Source: a virus. From it: a DNA stretch of 52,102 bases. Position 1 is the stretch's first letter, and each line of letters starts with the position of its first letter. This document shows, in pieces, positions 10,336-50,891 of this stretch. The translations under genes were made by a program, and so were the position numbers. The notes beneath the pieces were generated by a model, which made no database searches, was not told the DNA's origin, and saw only the letters and a list, made by a program, of their open reading frames with translations. Location of the stretch: positions 1 through 52,102 of IMG/VR virus record IMGVR_UViG_3300045135_003613, one strand, 5' to 3'.

Positions 10336-11142
10336 TCAGTAGGACCCGCAATCCACCGTGGTGATCTGGGCTTGCAATCCATCGAGCGTGCTTTGCAGGT
10401 TTGAAACCTGGGCAATCGTGTGCCCGTGGCTACTGGCCGCCTTGCTGGCAAGTTGGGCCGTGAGCGTCGGAATGTCACCGATCCCGAGCGCCACGGTGCC
10501 GGTTTGACCATTCACCGAGGACACTGGGCCATTGGCGAGCACGCTTTCAGCGACCGCCGCTGCATCAGCAGCATCTTGCGCCGCCTGCTGGGCCAGAAGC
10601 AGCGTGTTGGCCACATTGGCGGCGGCCTCGATCAGGGCCGTCGCGAGACCCGCGCTTGCGGAAATCACCCAGTCATTGTGTTGGGCGGCCCCGATATTGC
10701 CATGAATGGCGACAACCTCACCTGCGAGCCCACCGTTTTCGCGCGCATACGCGGCCACCCGAAACACCGCCCAATCGTTCAGGCTGTCCGTGCTGCCGCG
10801 GGAGATGACCACATAGGGCGTGGGCGCAAAGAGCGCGCGCGCCGGCGTGTCATCGATTTCAAAAGTGGTCTCTAGCCCGACCGCAAGCGTCAGCGGCGTC
10901 GCTGATGTGGCCACCAGAAACCCGTTTTCTGCGGCCGCAGATGCTGTGGCCAGCGCAGGGCCCAAGACCTCATTCACCCGGGTCAGGCCAAGCGTGACCA
11001 GATTGTCGGTCGCCGTGCCGATCTGCGCGAGCTGGGTATTCAGTTCCGCGAGGCTTTCTGCAATCAGGCGATAGCGGCGGTTGAAAAAATCCCGATCGAG
11101 GTCCTGATTGTCACGCACGCGTAGGTCTTCAAACCTCAGCAT
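10336..11142 (-). CDS. Putative tail fibre or baseplate-attached protein
   Basis: A 268-residue protein of unknown fold. The middle is Ala-rich and helical (about residues 165-210, probable coiled coil). It also contains SSVNGQTGTVALGIGDIP at about 215-232; this VNGQTG-VxL motif is frequent in trimeric phage tail fibres. The last 20 residues include the SHGHTIAQVSNLQ segment, with a His-rich turn as in fibre tips. Placed between the sheath and the tail I/fibre genes, it is best read as a side or short tail fibre. Identity of the receptor target is not visible. Confidence 0.55.
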   Translation of the reverse strand: MLRFEDLRVRDNQDLDRDFFNRRYRLIAESLAELNTQLAQIGTATDNLVTLGLTRVNEVLGPALATASAAAENGFLVATSATPLTLAVGLETTFEIDDTPARALFAPTPYVVISRGSTDSLNDWAVFRVAAYARENGGLAGEVVAIHGNIGAAQHNDWVISASAGLATALIEAAANVANTLLLAQQAAQDAADAAAVAESVLANGPVSSVNGQTGTVALGIGDIPTLTAQLASKAASSHGHTIAQVSNLQSTLDGLQAQITTVDCGSY

Positions 11143-30991: not shown

Positions 30992-32305
30992 TTAGCCGTC
31001 CATTTCGGCATCTACCGGAACGGTCTCGCCGGATTTTAGCGCATCAAAAGTCTGCCCGCTGCTTGCCAGCACCGCGGTCTCGCCCGTGAACTCTTGCCAG
31101 CGGCGGACGATCACATCCACATATTTCGGATCGAGCTCGATCAGGGACGCGTGGCGTCCCGTCTTTTCCGCCGCGATGAGCGTCGTGCCACTGCCGCCGA
31201 AGGGATCGAACACCAGATCGCCCTTGCGGCTCGAATTGCGGATTGCCCGTTCGACCAGGGACACCGGCTTCATCGTCGGATGCAGATCGTTCTTGTGGGG
31301 CCGCTCGATGTTCCAGACATCGCCCTGGTCGCGATCGCCGCACCAGTGGCGTTTCACACCCTCGGGCCAGCCATAGAGGATCGGCTCATATTGCCGCTGG
31401 TAATCGGCGCGGCCCAGAGTGAAGCGGTCCTTCGCCCAGATGATGAAGGTCGACCAATGGCCGCCGGCGGATTTGAACGCCGATTGCAGCGTCTGCAATT
31501 CGCTGGACGACATGCAGATATAAACCGCGCCGTCGGTATGCGAGTTGATCAGTACGCAGGCGTCGTAGAGGAACTGCCCGAAACCTTCGCCCAGGGCGTC
31601 GTTCTTGATCCGCCGCCCCTTGCCAGCTTTCTCCGCGCCAACACCGCCGGCGTAGTCCACATTGTAGGGCGGATCGCAAAAGCAGAGGTCGGCTTTCACA
31701 TCGCCGAGCACTTTCTGCACATCCGTGGCAACCGTGCTGTCGCCGCAGAGCAGCCTGTGTTTACCCAAGAGCCAGACATCGCCGGGGCGTGTTACAGGGG
31801 CCTCGGGAACCTCCGGCACATCGTCGGGGTCCGTCAGGCCACCCGTCGTGTCGATCAGCGCGTCGGGCAGGATTTCCGCGAGGTCCTCTGCGCTAAAGCC
31901 GATCAGCGACATATCCTCGATCCCGAAATCTTCCCGCAACTCCCCGATCTCGATGCGCAGCATCTCCGGGTCCCACTCGGCGATTTCGGCCAGGCGGTTG
32001 TCGGCCAGAGTATAAAGCCGCCGATCTTCTTCCGACCAGCCGCGCGCCACCATCACCGGCACCTCGGCCAACCCTAGCTGCGCGGCGGCCATCAACCGGC
32101 CATGGCCGGCGATGATCGTCCCATCCTCGGCCACCAGCATCGGGATGGTGAACCCAAAGCGCTCCATCGAGGCCGCGATCTGGTCGATCTGCTCCGGTGG
32201 GTGCTGGCGGGCGTTTTTTGCATAAGGGACCAAATCGGCCACCTGCCACATCTCGACCTGCGCCGCGGGCCAGGCCTGCGGGGTGATTTTGGATTGGGCT
32301 GTCAT
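30992..32305 (-). CDS. ParB-domain DNA methyltransferase
   Basis: A 437-residue fusion of an N-terminal ParB-like domain (PYAKNARQHPPEQIDQIAAS, then a GHGRLMAAAQLGL nuclease/DNA-binding motif, residues about 20-95) to an N6/N4 DNA methyltransferase of the beta group. DPPYNVDYAGG is near residue 218 and DPFGGSGTTLIAAEK, the AdoMet motif, near 372. Such fusions are common in alphaproteobacterial prophages and may protect phage DNA from restriction or mark it for packaging. The ATG at 32305 follows AGGATCCC; an upstream ATG at 32323 adds six residues. The 450-bp region in front of it is non-coding. Confidence 0.9.
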   Translation of the reverse strand: MTAQSKITPQAWPAAQVEMWQVADLVPYAKNARQHPPEQIDQIAASMERFGFTIPMLVAEDGTIIAGHGRLMAAAQLGLAEVPVMVARGWSEEDRRLYTLADNRLAEIAEWDPEMLRIEIGELREDFGIEDMSLIGFSAEDLAEILPDALIDTTGGLTDPDDVPEVPEAPVTRPGDVWLLGKHRLLCGDSTVATDVQKVLGDVKADLCFCDPPYNVDYAGGVGAEKAGKGRRIKNDALGEGFGQFLYDACVLINSHTDGAVYICMSSSELQTLQSAFKSAGGHWSTFIIWAKDRFTLGRADYQRQYEPILYGWPEGVKRHWCGDRDQGDVWNIERPHKNDLHPTMKPVSLVERAIRNSSRKGDLVFDPFGGSGTTLIAAEKTGRHASLIELDPKYVDVIVRRWQEFTGETAVLASSGQTFDALKSGETVPVDAEMDG

Positions 32306-32323
32306 TGGGATCCTGTCGGGCAT

Positions 32324-33442: not shown

Positions 33443-33835
33443 TCAGCGGTCGACAGGGATCATCAACTTCGAAAGCCAGACTGCGAAGGTTTCCTCGGAC
33501 ATCACGCCAGAGGCCAAGTCTTCCATAGCCCTGACGCCGTCGAGCGGATCCGGGCGCAAGCCAAAGCCATTCAGGCGCAGAAACGTCGCCGACGTCACAA
33601 AGGCCGTCCGTTTGTTGCCGTCAACAAAGGCATGCGCCTTCGCAATCCCAAACGCATAAGCCGCGGCAATTTCCTCAAGGCTCGGCGCGCCATAGGCAGC
33701 TTTGTTGCGGGGACGCTCCACCGCCGCCTCGAGAAGCTGGATGTCGCGCATGCCTGACGCACCGCCGTGGCGCGCAATCTGGCGATCATGGATGATCAGA
33801 ACCGCCTGCAACGGCACCCATACCGGCTCGATCAC
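33443..33835 (-). CDS. doc: Doc-family toxin (Fic fold)
   Basis: A 130-residue Doc protein. The diagnostic motif HAFVDGNKRTAF lies at residues 68-79, matching HxFx(D/N)(A/G)NKR of Doc kinases, which phosphorylate EF-Tu. It begins with GTG 33835, overlapping the antitoxin stop (GTGA). The partner is an AbrB-type protein rather than Phd, as in many such loci. The three tandem repeats at 33372-33416 lie just downstream of it. Confidence 0.9.
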   Translation of the reverse strand: MIEPVWVPLQAVLIIHDRQIARHGGASGMRDIQLLEAAVERPRNKAAYGAPSLEEIAAAYAFGIAKAHAFVDGNKRTAFVTSATFLRLNGFGLRPDPLDGVRAMEDLASGVMSEETFAVWLSKLMIPVDR

Positions 33836-35310: not shown

Positions 35311-35419
35311 GGGTGGTCTCCTTTTCGGGTGGGCTGCTCGGGTGGAAGACGACGGCGGTCATGTGCTTGGCGGTGCGGGCCGCCGTCGTCGGATTGAATT
35401 GGAAAGCTGGTGGCCTCAT
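35303..35419 (-). CDS. Possible 38-aa coupled protein
   Basis: A 38-codon ORF (MRPPAFQFNPTTAARTAKHM) fills the only gap between the primase and the resolvase. Its ATG at 35417-35419 overlaps the primase stop (ATGA), and its TGA is inside the resolvase start. The overlaps on both sides are what would be expected of a real coupled peptide, but the codon content is not conclusive. Confidence 0.4.
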   Translation of the reverse strand: MRPPAFQFNPTTAARTAKHMTAVVFHPSSPPEKETTHG

Positions 35420-38358
35420 GGGTCGAGATCCTTCAGCCAATCGGGGCGTGGGGGCCTTTGGGGACCTTCATTTTGAGGTCCCCACCGAGGTCCCCACGTG
35501 TAAGCCTCTGTTGTTAAATCGATTTGGGGACATGGGGGACCTTGGGGACCTTTTCCCGGGTCATCTCTATCGTGCGCGTGCGCGCGCATGCGCGTGTGCG
35601 AAGGGGCCGAAATAGGTCCCCCAGGTCCCCAAGGTCCCCATTTGTCATTGTTTTCAGCATGTTGGTGGTGGGGACCTTTGTTTTTGAGGTCCCCACCTGA
35701 GGCTAGAGGTCCCCCAACCTCAGGTTGATTTGATGTATTCACATCGGCTTCACTCTCACAAATCTCGAGTTGCCACCGTGTTGTCTTGTGCAGCACACCT
35801 GCTTTGCGCACGCGAACCGCGCGTCTTTCCAACCGGAACACCCGATCACGCATCTTCGAAATCGATATCCCGAAGGCGGTTTTTTGTGCTCGCTCCGTCC
35901 CGCCACTCATCGGTGGCGCTGGATCACAGAATGCCGCGACATCGAACAAGTCAGCCGCCCCGACCGGTGCCGTCCCAAACCGATCCCACCAGGCGGCGAT
36001 AAACGCGCTCCAACCCGCGCCCTCGCTGTCGGAGGCCGCCATCATGTCTTCAAGGTTCGTCAGGAAACCCGGGATGCCTGCGGTTTCCAGTACGCCACCA
36101 ATGACCTGCGCCCAGTTCTCATAGGACCCGATGGTCTTGCTGCCGCGCGGCTTGCCAGCAGCGATCCAAGCTTGGCAGAGCGTCAGGCACGCGGCCACGA
36201 TGCGCGCACGGTTGGCGCGGATCCAGACCATGAGATCGGGATGGCGGAAACCTGCGCGCTGCCAGGGACGCTCGACATTGGCATCGAGCCGGATGCGCAC
36301 GAGGCGACGGGCCATCTCGTTTGAGAACTCGGGGTTGTTGCCCGTGGCGATCCACAGACAACGGATCGGCAACCGGGTCATTTCCGAGGCCCCAAGCACG
36401 CGGTCCTCCCAGAAGGGAGCGGTCAGTGCGGCTGCAACGGCAGAACTGTCGAGCTTGGCCCGCAGGTTGTCGATCAGGATGATTGAGGGGATCTGGCGCA
36501 GCTTGGCTGTGACACGCTTGCGCCATTCTTCGTCGTCGCGGCCCTCGGTCATGACGCTGGCACCGGTGCCGGTCAGGATGGTGGCCACGGCATCGACCAA
36601 CAGCGTGGCCCCGGTGCCGGGCGTGGGTTTTTCAATCAGATGCAGCGGCGTGGGCCCGTCGACCATGCCGCGCAAGAACCCAAGCAGCAGCAGCGCCACC
36701 ACATGGGCGCGTTCCGCTTCCCCGGTGAAAGGGAAATCGCCGAAGAGGTCGTCGCAGATCAGCTCGCGCGCAGCGGCGATCTCCGCCTCTGTGGGGCGCT
36801 TCGGGATGTCTGGCACGGTAAAGCCCGGTGACGGGACATAGAGCAGACGTGCGTCCGGATGATAGCCGGGGGCCGTGATCAGCGTGCCGCTGCGCCCGAA
36901 CACGGGCGTGTTCACGATGCCTGTGAGCACCGGCAGTGCGGGATCGGGCGTGGCGAGTACGGATTTGACTGTTGCGACCGGCGGCGGCGCGGGCAGCAAT
37001 TCCCCCTTGGCGTTTTCGCGGACCCAGCGGGCGAGACGTGCCAACATATGCCGAAGGCGTTCTTCATTCAGGATCGTGGCGACGGGTCGGCCTTCATCAT
37101 CCGGTACGACCCAGGTCGGCTGCCCGGCAAAACGGAAGACCCAAGGCGTGCGGTTCGAGGCCATGACCACGCTCCAGACCTGCGCCACAGCGCGACCGAG
37201 ATCGCCTTCGTCAGCGCGCAGGACGGGGATGTCATTGCCAGTGCCTTGGTAATTCAGCGGCCGATGTTGCCCGATTTGCAGAACGGAGTCGGCATCGACT
37301 TCCTGTTCGGTGGCCGCGATGAGCTGAGCGACGGCTGCTGAACCGGCTCTTAGCAACATGTCGTTGAAGTCCTCGCCCTCCTCAGGCGGGATTGCGATGG
37401 CGACGTCGCGGCCCTGAGCGCGTAGGCGGCGAGCACTTGCCTCGGCGGCCCGCAGACCGGCCCCGGAGGTATCATGATCGGCGAGGATCAAGATGCGCTG
37501 TGCCGCCGGGGGCAATTCCACCTGCTCAAGTCCTGAGGTGGAAAGCGTCGCCCAGACCGGCAGATCCGGGCAAGCCGTCATCACCGCCAGACCGGTTTCT
37601 ATGCCTTCACAGAGTGCGACACGCCCGTCTTTGCCGATCGCGGCCAGTCTGACCGCGCCGCCTGCAATGCGGCCCAGCATCATCTTGGGCTTGGCAATCG
37701 GAGCTTTGCGCACCTCGTTCCCATCAGAAACGAGGTAAGTGCGATGCAGTCCGATGATCTGGCCGCTGCGATCGCGCACTTGGCCCAGCAATGCCGCATA
37801 CCCGGTCTTGGTTTCCCAATGGGTCAGATCCGGGTGGAACAGCAAGTCGGTCTCGTGGGGCACAGTCAGTGAGCGACCGGCGAGATAGGTCGCAGCGGCA
37901 GTGTCCGCGACTGGCACGGCACGCGAGAGGATATGTGCGATCTCCTGCGCCGGGTCGCGCTTAGGCGCGGGCGTGACCACGGGCGTCTGACGCGCCGGTG
38001 CCCCAGCGTTTACGCCTGTCATGTCCGCCGCCTCAACGATCAGATCACGCCCGGTCAGACCTGTCCCTTCTTCGATCGTGTTGATCGGCCCGCCACCTGT
38101 GTTTCCATCGAAATCAACCCAGTCCCCGGCATGCGGACCGCGCAGGGCGATAATGCAGGAGCCGGTGTTGCGCGGGGCATCGCCGCGGATATTGGCCAGC
38201 CGCCATTCATCACCGACACGTTTGCCGTTCGGAAACAAACGCGGCACCCAAGTCTCTGCAGTGTCGCGCAGGCGCTGCACGATCAAATCAAGATCGTAGC
38301 GTTGCTTCTCGCCATGGTTTGGGACTACGTCGTTGAGGTCGATGACCACTGCGCTCAT
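35416..38358 (-). CDS. Primase/helicase-like replication protein, 980 aa
   Basis: The largest protein of the early region. The N-terminus (about residues 30-100) resembles the zinc/DUF7146-type CHC2-like domain, followed by a Toprim domain: VALCEGIETGLAVMTACPDL near 250 and ILILADHDTSGAG near 290. A C-terminal ATPase-like region has a Walker A-like KPTPGTGATLLVDAV near 578 and IPSIILIDNLRAKLDSS as Walker B. Thus it may prime and unwind at the phage origin. The last 100 residues are Gly-Pro-rich, and their DNA is repeat-dense. GTAGGAGG precedes ATG 38358. Confidence 0.85.
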   Translation of the reverse strand: MSAVVIDLNDVVPNHGEKQRYDLDLIVQRLRDTAETWVPRLFPNGKRVGDEWRLANIRGDAPRNTGSCIIALRGPHAGDWVDFDGNTGGGPINTIEEGTGLTGRDLIVEAADMTGVNAGAPARQTPVVTPAPKRDPAQEIAHILSRAVPVADTAAATYLAGRSLTVPHETDLLFHPDLTHWETKTGYAALLGQVRDRSGQIIGLHRTYLVSDGNEVRKAPIAKPKMMLGRIAGGAVRLAAIGKDGRVALCEGIETGLAVMTACPDLPVWATLSTSGLEQVELPPAAQRILILADHDTSGAGLRAAEASARRLRAQGRDVAIAIPPEEGEDFNDMLLRAGSAAVAQLIAATEQEVDADSVLQIGQHRPLNYQGTGNDIPVLRADEGDLGRAVAQVWSVVMASNRTPWVFRFAGQPTWVVPDDEGRPVATILNEERLRHMLARLARWVRENAKGELLPAPPPVATVKSVLATPDPALPVLTGIVNTPVFGRSGTLITAPGYHPDARLLYVPSPGFTVPDIPKRPTEAEIAAARELICDDLFGDFPFTGEAERAHVVALLLLGFLRGMVDGPTPLHLIEKPTPGTGATLLVDAVATILTGTGASVMTEGRDDEEWRKRVTAKLRQIPSIILIDNLRAKLDSSAVAAALTAPFWEDRVLGASEMTRLPIRCLWIATGNNPEFSNEMARRLVRIRLDANVERPWQRAGFRHPDLMVWIRANRARIVAACLTLCQAWIAAGKPRGSKTIGSYENWAQVIGGVLETAGIPGFLTNLEDMMAASDSEGAGWSAFIAAWWDRFGTAPVGAADLFDVAAFCDPAPPMSGGTERAQKTAFGISISKMRDRVFRLERRAVRVRKAGVLHKTTRWQLEICESEADVNTSNQPEVGGPLASGGDLKNKGPHHQHAENNDKWGPWGPGGPISAPSHTRMRAHAHDRDDPGKGPQGPPCPQIDLTTEAYTWGPRWGPQNEGPQRPPRPDWLKDLDP
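35459..35714. repeat. GGGGACC/GGTCCCC repeat array in the primase 3' end
   Basis: The heptamer GGGGACC, in either orientation, occurs 11 times in 255 bp: 35460, 35477, 35489, 35535, 35544, 35615, 35624, 35633, 35670, 35688 and 35708. Two similar hairpins are present: 35459-35484 (9-bp arms, loop TCATTTTG) and 35668-35696 (10-bp arms, loop TTGTTTTTG). They are read in different protein frames. A stretch of alternating purine-pyrimidine lies between (35570-35600). Confidence 0.85.
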
Positions 38359-48280: not shown

Positions 48281-48729
48281 CAAACCATGACCCAATCCCT
48301 GCGCGCATCGCCGCGTTGAAAACTACGCCAACGCCGGCATTGCGCAAACAATGGCGCGAGTTGTTCGGTACCATGCCACCGCCCTTCAATCGGCGTTACC
48401 TGGAAAGCCGGCTGGCCTATCGCATCCAGGAACTGGCCTATGGCGGCCTGAAACCCCAGACCCTCAAACGACTGGCGAAGCTGGGCGACGAGCTCGATGG
48501 CGGAGATCGCCTGAAAAGCCGCATCCGCGCCGATATCAAGCCGATCTTGGGCACAAGGCTGCTCCGCGAATGGCAGGGGGTCGAGCATGTCGTCACGGTT
48601 ACGGTCGATGGGTATGAATGGCAGGGGCGCCCGTACAAGTCGCTGTCCTCCATCGCTCGCGCCATCACCGGCACTCGCTGGAATGGCTGGGTTTTCTTTG
48701 GCCTGAAGAATTATCGGGGGCGAACATGA
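48277..48729 (+). CDS. DUF2924 domain protein
   Basis: A 150-residue DUF2924 protein (MTNHDPIPARIAALKTTPTP), with RLAYRIQELAYGGLKPQTLK at about 47-66 and a C-terminal segment typical of the family. DUF2924 genes are found almost always before a large serine recombinase in alphaproteobacterial prophages. Its role is unproven; a recombination directionality or accessory factor is an idea. GGAAG precedes ATG 48277, and it overlaps its neighbours by ATGA. Confidence 0.8.
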   Translation: MTNHDPIPARIAALKTTPTPALRKQWRELFGTMPPPFNRRYLESRLAYRIQELAYGGLKPQTLKRLAKLGDELDGGDRLKSRIRADIKPILGTRLLREWQGVEHVVTVTVDGYEWQGRPYKSLSSIARAITGTRWNGWVFFGLKNYRGRT

Positions 48730-50042
48730 CACAGCCGATCCTGCGCAAATTGCGCTGCGCAATCTACACCCGCAAATCCAGCGAAGAAGGGCTCGAGCAG
48801 GAATTCAACTCGCTCCATGCCCAGCGTGAAGCCTGCGAGGCCTATATCGCCAGTCAGCGATCGGAAGGCTGGGTTGTTCTCCGCGAACAATACGATGACG
48901 GCGGCGTGTCCGGCGGCACCTTGGAGCGGCCGGGCCTCAAGGCGCTGATGCAGGACATAGAGGAGGGCCTGGTCGATGTGGTTGTCGTTTACAAGATTGA
49001 TCGCCTCAGCCGCTCGCTGGCTGATTTCGCCAAGTTGGTTGAGGTATTCGATCGCACGGGCGTTACCTTCGTATCCGTAACCCAGCAGTTCAACACGACG
49101 ACTTCCATGGGGCGGTTGACACTGAACATCCTGCTCAGCTTCGCCCAATTCGAGCGTGAAGTAACCGCCGAGCGCATCCGCGACAAGGTTGCCGCCAGCC
49201 GCAAGAAGGGCATCTGGATGGGCGGCGTGCCGCCCTACGGTTACCGTGTTGAAAATCGCAAGCTCATAATCGATGAGGAGAAGGCTGAGCATATCCGTTG
49301 GATTTTCGCCCGCTTTGTCGAAATCGGTTCCGCGACGGAACTGGCGCGCCAAATCGATCAGCGTGGGCTCTTAACGCCAAATGGAAATCGGATCGACAAG
49401 AAGTACCTCTATCGGCTGCTGAACAACCGCGCCTATATCGGCGAAGCGGTTCACAAGGGCGAAAGCTATCCCGGGGAACATGAGGCCATCCTTGACCGCG
49501 TTATCTGGGACAAGGTCCATACCATCCTGCAGGAGAGCCCACATAAGCGGGCAGCGAATACGCGCGCCGAGACGCCAGCCCTGCTCAAGGGATTGATCTA
49601 CGGCCCCGATGGGGCGGCATTCTCACCAACCCACACGAGAAAGCGGGGCAAGCTTTATCGCTACTATGTCAGCCAGTCGATCCTGAAGCACGGCGCTGGA
49701 TCCTGCCCGATTGGCCGCGTCACGGCCGGTGAGATCGAGACCGCCGTGATCGACCAGGTCCGTGCGGTGTTTCGCCAACCAGAAATCATCGCCGGCGCGT
49801 GGGACGCCGCGAAAACCCATTGTCGCGACATCACCCTCGACGATGCGCGCATGGCTCTGCAGCAATTCGATCCGCTGTGGGATGAACTCTTCCCAGCCGA
49901 GCAGACACGTATCATCGCCTTGGCCGTTGAGCGGGTCGACATTGGCACCGACGCCATCAGCGTCCGGATGCGTATCGATGGGCTCGCGGAGTTGGCCCAA
50001 GAACTGCTGCAAAGCCCTGAAGAAAAGGATGCTGCCGCATGA
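48726..50042 (+). CDS. Large serine recombinase (phage integrase)
   Basis: The 438-residue protein has the resolvase-type catalytic domain (CAIYTRKSSEEGLEQEFNSL; catalytic Ser S18), a recombinase domain (GVPPYGYRVENRKLIIDEEK near 155-175) and a zinc-ribbon-like domain around 285-330, where the usual Cys pairs are mostly gone (LIYGPDGAAFSPTHTRKRGK). This degenerate ribbon is typical of the DUF2924-linked subgroup. It is full-length for that subgroup, ending with a coiled C-terminus. It would integrate and excise the prophage. It overlaps DUF2924 and the HTH gene by ATGA. Confidence 0.88.
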   Translation: MTQPILRKLRCAIYTRKSSEEGLEQEFNSLHAQREACEAYIASQRSEGWVVLREQYDDGGVSGGTLERPGLKALMQDIEEGLVDVVVVYKIDRLSRSLADFAKLVEVFDRTGVTFVSVTQQFNTTTSMGRLTLNILLSFAQFEREVTAERIRDKVAASRKKGIWMGGVPPYGYRVENRKLIIDEEKAEHIRWIFARFVEIGSATELARQIDQRGLLTPNGNRIDKKYLYRLLNNRAYIGEAVHKGESYPGEHEAILDRVIWDKVHTILQESPHKRAANTRAETPALLKGLIYGPDGAAFSPTHTRKRGKLYRYYVSQSILKHGAGSCPIGRVTAGEIETAVIDQVRAVFRQPEIIAGAWDAAKTHCRDITLDDARMALQQFDPLWDELFPAEQTRIIALAVERVDIGTDAISVRMRIDGLAELAQELLQSPEEKDAAA

Positions 50043-50801: not shown

Positions 50802-50891
50802 TGGCGGAGCCGAAGGGATTCGAACCCTCGAGACGATTCCTCGCCTACTCCCTTAGCAGGGGAGCGCCTTCGACCACTCGGCCACAGCTCC
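50802..50891 (-). tRNA. tRNA-Ser (GCT)
   Basis: The 90-nt gene, read on the minus strand, has GGAGCTG at the 5' end pairing with CGGCTCC, then discriminator G and an encoded CCA. The long variable arm of class II tRNAs is present, and the anticodon loop CTGCTAA gives anticodon GCT, reading AGC and AGU. The element ends somewhere on its 3' side, but no copy of its 3' end was found at the left junction, and the recombinase is of the serine type. Confidence 0.93.

Follow-up and report, generated by a model that had tools for sequence, protein, structure and literature searches.

A short-repeat array within the 3' tail of a phage primase-helicase gene covaries with the encoded winged helix and is a probable replication origin

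Results

The DNA analysed here (the window) is a single linear virus record from IMG/VR, 52,102 bp long; its minus strand encodes a 980-residue primase-helicase and putative initiator at positions 35416–38358. Domain matches, AF2 modelling and PDB matches give the protein the order DnaG-like DUF7146 and Toprim_3 primase, AAA+ helicase, C-terminal winged helix and disordered tail: the N-terminal part matches DnaG primases in the PDB (Foldseek), the AAA+ part matches phrog_10537, and the helicase part gave no D5_N, Pox_D5 or Prim-Pol Pfam match at E ≤ 10. In the AF2 model, which contains no DNA, the C-terminal domain (residues 801–867; 35758–35958, minus strand) is predicted to be a winged helix with a recognition helix and a wing, built from helices 801–809 and 822–835 and strands 840–842, 847–856 and 859–867. 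Foldseek searches with the isolated domain returned no PDB match and, in BFVD, its own phage relatives only, and when the whole alignment was used to search PDB sequences, only a chance match emerged. Disorder is predicted for the final 110 residues, which end in the conserved sequence PDWLKELDP. A ParB/methyltransferase gene is also present in the window.

The DNA coding for this tail carries a dense, iteron-like array, the proposed replication origin (35460–35714, unstranded). An earlier sequence-only reading had counted eleven copies of GGGGACC in both orientations and had seen two near-identical hairpins, and both observations hold: there are exactly 11 GGGGACC/GGTCCCC sites, four on the plus strand (35460, 35535, 35544, 35670) and seven on the minus strand (35477, 35489, 35615, 35624, 35633, 35688, 35708), all of them inside the primase-helicase ORF, with five further sites in the remainder of the window. 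The hairpins (35459–35484 and 35668–35697, both unstranded) are inverted site pairs with start-to-start distances of 17 and 18 bp, respectively. Folding assigns the second an 11-bp stem and a z score of −5.7; a 38-nt piece with the first scores −3.4, with a pairing that differs from the hairpin itself because a third site competes. The two peptides quoted in that reading, GGDLKNKGPH and WGPQNEGPQ, are both found in the ORF translation. When the peptide was recoded synonymously from the codon set of the gene itself (5000 trials), a mean of 0.8 sites and a maximum of 5 remained, which rules out chance or codon bias as the source of the array, and in the window's other 334-bp stretches no 7-mer occurs more than five times. 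A search of the window with the pattern GGGGACCTNNNGGGGACC, whose spacing differed from the real one, gave no match, and the pattern with the correct spacing was confined to the array.

Across the family, the sites follow a common layout, the conserved core of which consists of three sites, an approximately 30-bp alternating purine-pyrimidine tract and three opposed sites. Read along the gene, the first half comprises two reverse sites, one forward site and then a block of at most three reverse sites 9 bp apart; the second half begins with at most three forward sites, again 9 bp apart, and closes with two reverse sites and one forward site. In the window, these elements correspond to a three-site block at 35615–35639, the tract at 35571–35600 and an opposed block at 35526–35550 made up of two exact sites and a degenerate one (GGGGACA, 35526), all three features being unstranded. 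Neither the tract nor the dyad arrangement of sites around it had figured in the sequence-only reading. In 74 of 93 arrays, the sites bordering the central gap start 65, 68 or 71 bp apart, and the inverted pairs at 17–19 bp that make up the two hairpins occur on the left in about 80% and on the right in about 45% of arrays. Register can be maintained across a change of motif: loci L006 (GGTCCCC) and L008 (GGTTCAC) share 12 copies in register that differ at the same two positions, a comparison in which sites were picked by exact match per genome and the register counts alone are informative.

The alternating run in the tails has a median length of 28 bp, versus 8 bp in random gene segments, and alternation is kept in 524 of 567 four- or six-fold degenerate codons, where 280 would be expected from the gene's codon usage. 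Codon choice thus preserves the alternation, and the tract is therefore selected as DNA. Alternating CG/CA sequence is prone to adopt the Z-DNA form, and we infer that the tract may serve as an opening or topology element.

Relatives of the gene were collected from viral contigs (80 loci) and from bacterial genomes (62 loci), many of them alphaproteobacterial. GGGGACC itself is restricted to close relatives; in the remainder, a different motif occupies the same place at equal density, and every usable relative (about 100 distinct arrays) has 6–15 exact copies at the same gene position. An array at the gene end is absent from large lytic Ruegeria and Caulobacter phages and from phiAsp2, despite a homologous helicase. 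In total, 17 motif types were distinguished across genomes: AGGTCCCC in the window, AGGCCCCC in a relative that is 90% identical, and further AGGTTCAC, AGGTTCCC, ATGTTCCC, ACATTCCC, ACGTTCCC, ACGTTCAC, ACATTCAC, ACGTCCAC, AGGCTCAC, ACCCTCAC, AACCTCCC, ATCCTCCC and others. They share the form A-p2-p3-p4-p5-C-p7-C, with C invariant at positions 6 and 8 and variation at positions 2, 3, 4, 5 and 7. Types such as AGGTTCACA resemble the right half of a DnaA box (TTATNCACA), a resemblance that we judge coincidental.

All copies within a genome change together, and at least 35 such en-bloc type changes map onto the protein tree (FastTree, 124 proteins), a figure that recombination could inflate. The sequence-only reading would have been refuted by related phages that keep the peptide and lose the repeats, and the reverse is seen: the array is always in position in the relatives, motif and peptide change jointly (GGP/WGP giving way to CEP, GEP, GER or GEV), and no relative was found with the peptide but without the repeats. 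Because the peptide follows the motif, selection acts on the DNA. Furthermore, a truncation or frameshift interrupts the ORF within the array at four loci, and the sites carry on beyond the stop; family-wide, 1360 of 1373 exact sites lie inside ORFs and 13 at or past the stop codon. Mixed arrays, in which GGCTCAC is accompanied by GGTTCAC at some of the sites (e.g., L046, L051, L052 and L096–L099), may be intermediate states. Three loci retrieved by DNA pattern (L284, L290 and L300) proved to be unrelated collagen-like or repetitive genes and were rejected.

We then related each varying motif position to 870 protein columns in an association scan. The best or joint-best columns were 831 for position 2, 827 for position 3, 823 for position 4, 859 for position 5 and 857/858 for position 7, with co-change P values of about 2e-5, 2e-10, 4e-7, 3e-10 and 7e-15, respectively. 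In the AF2 model, residues 823, 827 and 831 share one face of helix 822–835, and residues 857–859 form the turn of the following β-hairpin, or wing. The window's putative specificity residues are accordingly R823, T827 and I831 in the recognition helix (motif positions 4, 3 and 2; 35866–35892, minus strand) and H857 and K858 (position 7) and T859 (position 5) in the wing (35782–35790, minus strand). Contingency tables of residue against base are near-deterministic. At position 2, an uncharged residue 831 goes with G (leucine being ambiguous) and lysine or arginine with a base other than G; at position 3, T827 goes with G, isoleucine mostly with A, and valine or alanine with C; at position 4, R/K823 pair with T and Q, N, H, T or P with C; at position 5, A/S859 pair with T and threonine or valine with C; and at position 7, H857 goes with C and arginine or glutamine with A.

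The code was evaluated by a leave-clade-out test, in which rows at least 85% identical were omitted and a single residue served as the predictor. Calls were correct in 95/96 cases at position 7, 93/96 at position 4, 92/96 at position 3 and 85/93 at position 2 (G or not), and in 84/96 at position 5, where 12 cases were uncallable and a 90% cut-off gave 95/96. Accuracy at positions 7, 4, 3 and 2 is 91–99%. The nearest allowed relative, used as predictor instead, scored 47, 52, 59, 72 and 82 at positions 7, 4, 3, 2 and 5, respectively. Columns of two adjacent genes, a RuvC-like resolvase and an SF1 helicase, fell short of this performance except at position 5, where the majority class already accounts for 88%; on these two adjacent-gene controls, linkage is rejected as the sole cause of the covariation. 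Some association columns may hitch-hike with recombined blocks of winged helix plus array.

Among 28 further loci, 20 could be framed, six of them with an identity of 97% or more to known rows; the code was correct in 20/20 at position 7, 20/20 at position 5, 19/20 at position 4, 18/20 at position 3 and 16/20 at position 2. Another seven of the 28 carry the new types AGACCCCC/AGTCCCCC, with residue combinations outside the code, and one is without the tail. One locus, L050, runs contrary to the code, having R823 yet a mixed, mostly GGCTCAC array (with GGTTCAC).

Finally, the genes of distant helicase homologues end in, or are immediately followed by, arrays built from other short motifs: GCAGGGA, GTGGGAA and CGGGTAG in Streptomyces plasmids, AAACCCG in Saccharopolyspora pCM32 and TACCCGCA in a Methanosarcinales phage. 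RepA of the plasmid pWTY27 is 32% identical to the window protein (phrog_10537/19930). Gel-shift and DNase footprinting experiments have established that it binds its GTGGGAAC iteron array, and the iteron region is essential for replication, which proceeds bidirectionally (PMC3583192). The two systems share a homologous helicase and, at the 3' end of its gene, short iterons in both orientations; they differ in that the pWTY27 array is described as lying outside the ORF, that its primase is a separate Prim-Pol gene, and that no family-wide motif switching is described there (PMC3583192).

Discussion

Judging from the covariation among natural sequences, it is almost certain that the protein's winged helix recognises the array. 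The suggestion of the sequence-only reading that the repeats act at the DNA level, for instance as an origin inside a replication gene, is supported by the conservation of the array, by the winged-helix covariation and by the binding observed in the homologue. Homology and layout make it highly likely that the array has origin activity, and we propose that these phages very probably replicate from it, so that the origin would sit in the 3' tail of the gene for its own initiator. GC skew, which had been put forward as a check, changes slope at about 34–36 kb, where gene content changes too, and has no clear turning point at the array.

In the mechanism that we envisage, the fusion of a DnaG-type primase and an AAA+ helicase would act as a self-loading initiator, whose C-terminal winged helix would bind the 8-bp repeats through contacts of the recognition helix with positions 2–4 and of the wing with positions 5 and 7. 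Oligomers could then assemble on both three-site blocks, facing opposite ways, and open the DNA around the central alternating tract, after which two helicases would depart in opposite directions, giving bidirectional forks. Helicase loading, melting at the tract and fork movement are thus conjectural steps of the model. With initiator and sites in one gene, specificity can switch as a unit.

Several other readings were weighed against an origin. The helicase might bind the array mainly to control its own expression or copy number, by autorepression or handcuffing, with replication starting elsewhere. Iterons often double for initiation and control, the sites do lie within the initiator gene, and the winged-helix covariation speaks for recognition rather than initiation; we nonetheless consider such a role improbable, as the sites are at the gene's 3' end, away from the promoter, the dyad layout and structured central tract fit an origin, and the array is essential in the homologue pWTY27, as would be expected of an origin. 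Less probable still is that the reader of the array is another phage or host protein, such as a ParB-like methyltransferase or a partition or packaging factor, and that the winged helix covaries by linkage only. The winged-helix coding sequence does adjoin the array, and a ParB/methyltransferase gene is at hand in the window, but a separate residue accounts for each base, these residues stand at i, i+4 and i+8 of one helix plus a wing, a given residue predicts the same base across unrelated backgrounds, and the adjacent genes tested contain no such columns.

The sequence-only reading had also offered a transcript structure, and the hairpins could in principle work in RNA, as a terminator, in mRNA stability or as a structured transcript. 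Two strong hairpins and inverted pairs at fixed spacing would suit such a function, yet protein sites in two orientations would give inverted pairs anyway, most sites fall outside the hairpin pairing, and the sites covary with protein residues, not just arm with arm; moreover, the search against Rfam produced no match at gathering score and terminator-like sites occur at chance level. This alternative accordingly finds little support, and we regard it as very unlikely. That the repetition belongs to the protein, as a Gly-Pro-rich low-complexity tail, is scarcely credible: the tail is translated and its terminal PDWLKELDP is conserved, but the sites fall in several frames and on both strands, the peptide shifts with the motif, and the sites survive behind premature stops and frameshifts and are lost on synonymous recoding.

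The closest described arrangement is the Rep-ori replicon of the SaPI/PICI and pWTY27 type. SaPI Rep and SCCmec Cch2 each use the C-terminal domain to bind iterons that lie immediately downstream of the gene (PMC7581432), and PICI origins have two iteron sets flanking a central element (PMC6092414). On the archaeal plasmid pRN1, the region just after the primase-helicase gene is likewise essential (PMC4234260). The proposed initiator of the window resembles SaPI/PICI Rep and Cch2 as a self-loading helicase with a C-terminal domain that binds iterons, whereas their helicases, of the DUF927 and D5/Primase_Cterm families, are unlike its own; their origins are intergenic, and the portions available describe no residue-by-base code (PMC7581432, PMC6092414). 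The window combines an AAA+ helicase with a C-terminal DNA-binding domain (a winged helix by AF2), short 3' iterons in two sets about a central element, albeit inside the ORF, and recognition of its own iterons by the protein, as argued from covariation and from direct binding in the homologue. It has neither an intergenic origin downstream of rep nor an A+T-rich melting region between the sets: the PICI centre is A+T-rich (PMC6092414), in contrast to the window's G+C-rich alternating tract. Because its sites are intra-ORF, the window's proposed replicon is a variant of the Rep-ori type and not a plain member.

Covarying origins and initiators are known elsewhere. In PLE, the origin and the DNA-binding domain of the initiator RepA covary as a module and switch repeatedly, the origin-directed nuclease Odn of ICP1 being the suspected driver (PMC8263062); PLE, unlike the window, has a RepA_N initiator, three intergenic iterons of about 30 bp and two module types, versus at least 17 here (PMC8263062). 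Geminivirus Rep-iteron pairs are conserved in position and diversified in sequence, with cognate Rep specificity (PMC12548392). The geminiviruses differ from the window in their unrelated proteins and rolling-circle replication.

Iterons inside the initiator gene are a feature that the window shares with lambda gene O. The O protein is no helicase; it contacts its sites with the N-terminal domain, and the iterons, four in number, are longer and accompanied by an A+T-rich stretch. An initiator of the O type, which brings in the helicase as a separate protein (P, DnaB), has no counterpart in the window system, because the proposed initiator there is itself a primase-helicase. The P4 alpha protein unites primase, helicase and a C-terminal DNA-binding domain that recognises repeats, and those repeats are distant from its gene. 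The window protein, by comparison with P4 alpha and D5 proteins, has no D5_N/Pox_D5 match and has a DnaG-like primase. In one collected locus (L291), whose protein matches D5_N and Pox_D5, the gene tail itself contains an array of GGTTCAC.

We found no account, in the open-access literature searched, of the array of this phage family, of a recognition code at the level of single bases and single residues, or of a comparable number of types; the in-frame position of the putative origin and the residue-by-base code thus appear to be undescribed. What sets the family apart from the described Rep-ori replicons is the placement of this probable origin within the ORF in nearly all members instead of outside the gene. 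A joint reading, which we hold with slightly more doubt than confidence, is that the origin lies wholly in the initiator's frame as a one-gene unit, that at least 17 specificities are set through the winged-helix code, that co-resident replicons, satellites or origin-targeting nucleases probably exert the pressure to switch, and that the Z-DNA-prone tract replaces an A+T-rich opener.

The approximately 100 natural variants provide a near-complete, testable residue-to-base code for a replication initiator. Two questions become testable with them: by what route an initiator and its dozen origin sites can acquire a new specificity in concert while replication continues, and which pressure diversifies phage origins, be it incompatibility, satellites or origin-directed nucleases. 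In addition, a two-orientation array of short repeats at or in the 3' end of a helicase gene offers a rule for finding origins in unannotated phages and plasmids, and Gly/Pro-type tail repeats of such proteins should be annotated with caution, as DNA sites rather than protein features. With respect to the driver of switching, two of these helicase genes lie together on one contig (L320), one with CGTTCCC and the other with GGTTCCC as its motif, a pair that fits avoidance of cross-talk; Jannaschia seosinensis carries two copies of the same motif type (L092 and L093), and exclusion is therefore not absolute.

Conserved Features of the Array and of the Primase-Helicase C Terminus

The primase-helicase ORF of the window ends in the residues PDWLKDLDP (window 35419-35445), which are conserved 3' of the variable array, with PDWLKELDP and similar endings found in relatives. 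Conservation of this C-terminal peptide beyond such a variable stretch argues that the primase-helicase tail is translated to its end, and the peptide itself could possibly mediate a replisome contact. At the array centre lies a 30-bp alternating purine-pyrimidine tract (window 35571-35600), whose alternation is preserved via codon choice family-wide, in both the window and its relatives.

Several related loci carry interrupted ORFs, or shortened or mixed arrays. The ORF acquires a premature stop or frameshift within the array in L038, L046, L073, and L102, where the downstream sites are retained. An intra-array deletion in a Thioalkalivibrio sp. contig (L135) leaves only ~3 sites but preserves the C-terminal peptide. 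GGCTCAC and GGTTCAC sites are mixed in one array in L046, L047, L050-L052, L096-L099, L101, L102, and L130, perhaps representing a state between two specificities; the winged-helix residue 823 is R in L050 but Q in its neighbours.

Distribution and Genomic Context

An array of three reverse and four forward GGTTCAC sites flanking a central gap lies in the gene tail of a D5_N/Pox_D5 (P4-alpha-like) primase (L291:2995-5475), and the arrangement extends beyond the window helicase family. In L293, where 16 GGTTCAC sites span positions 10462-10676, no helicase of this family is detectable within the locus, and the contig end is close by. Contig L320 (IMGVR_UViG_3300027976_002118) encodes two such helicases with differing arrays, CGTTCCC versus GGTTCCC, and represents either adjacent prophages or a chimeric contig. 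The homologous helicase in L270 and other Caulobacter phages is labelled 'PE-PGRS family protein', most likely a misnomer.

Close to the end of the window record, a large serine integrase gene (48618-50042, plus strand) adjoins a tRNA-Ser(GCT) gene (50802-50891, minus strand), and the record is therefore probably a prophage. Near the replication module, the minus strand also encodes a ParB-domain DNA methyltransferase fusion (window 30992-32323) and a Doc-like Fic protein (window 33443-33835).
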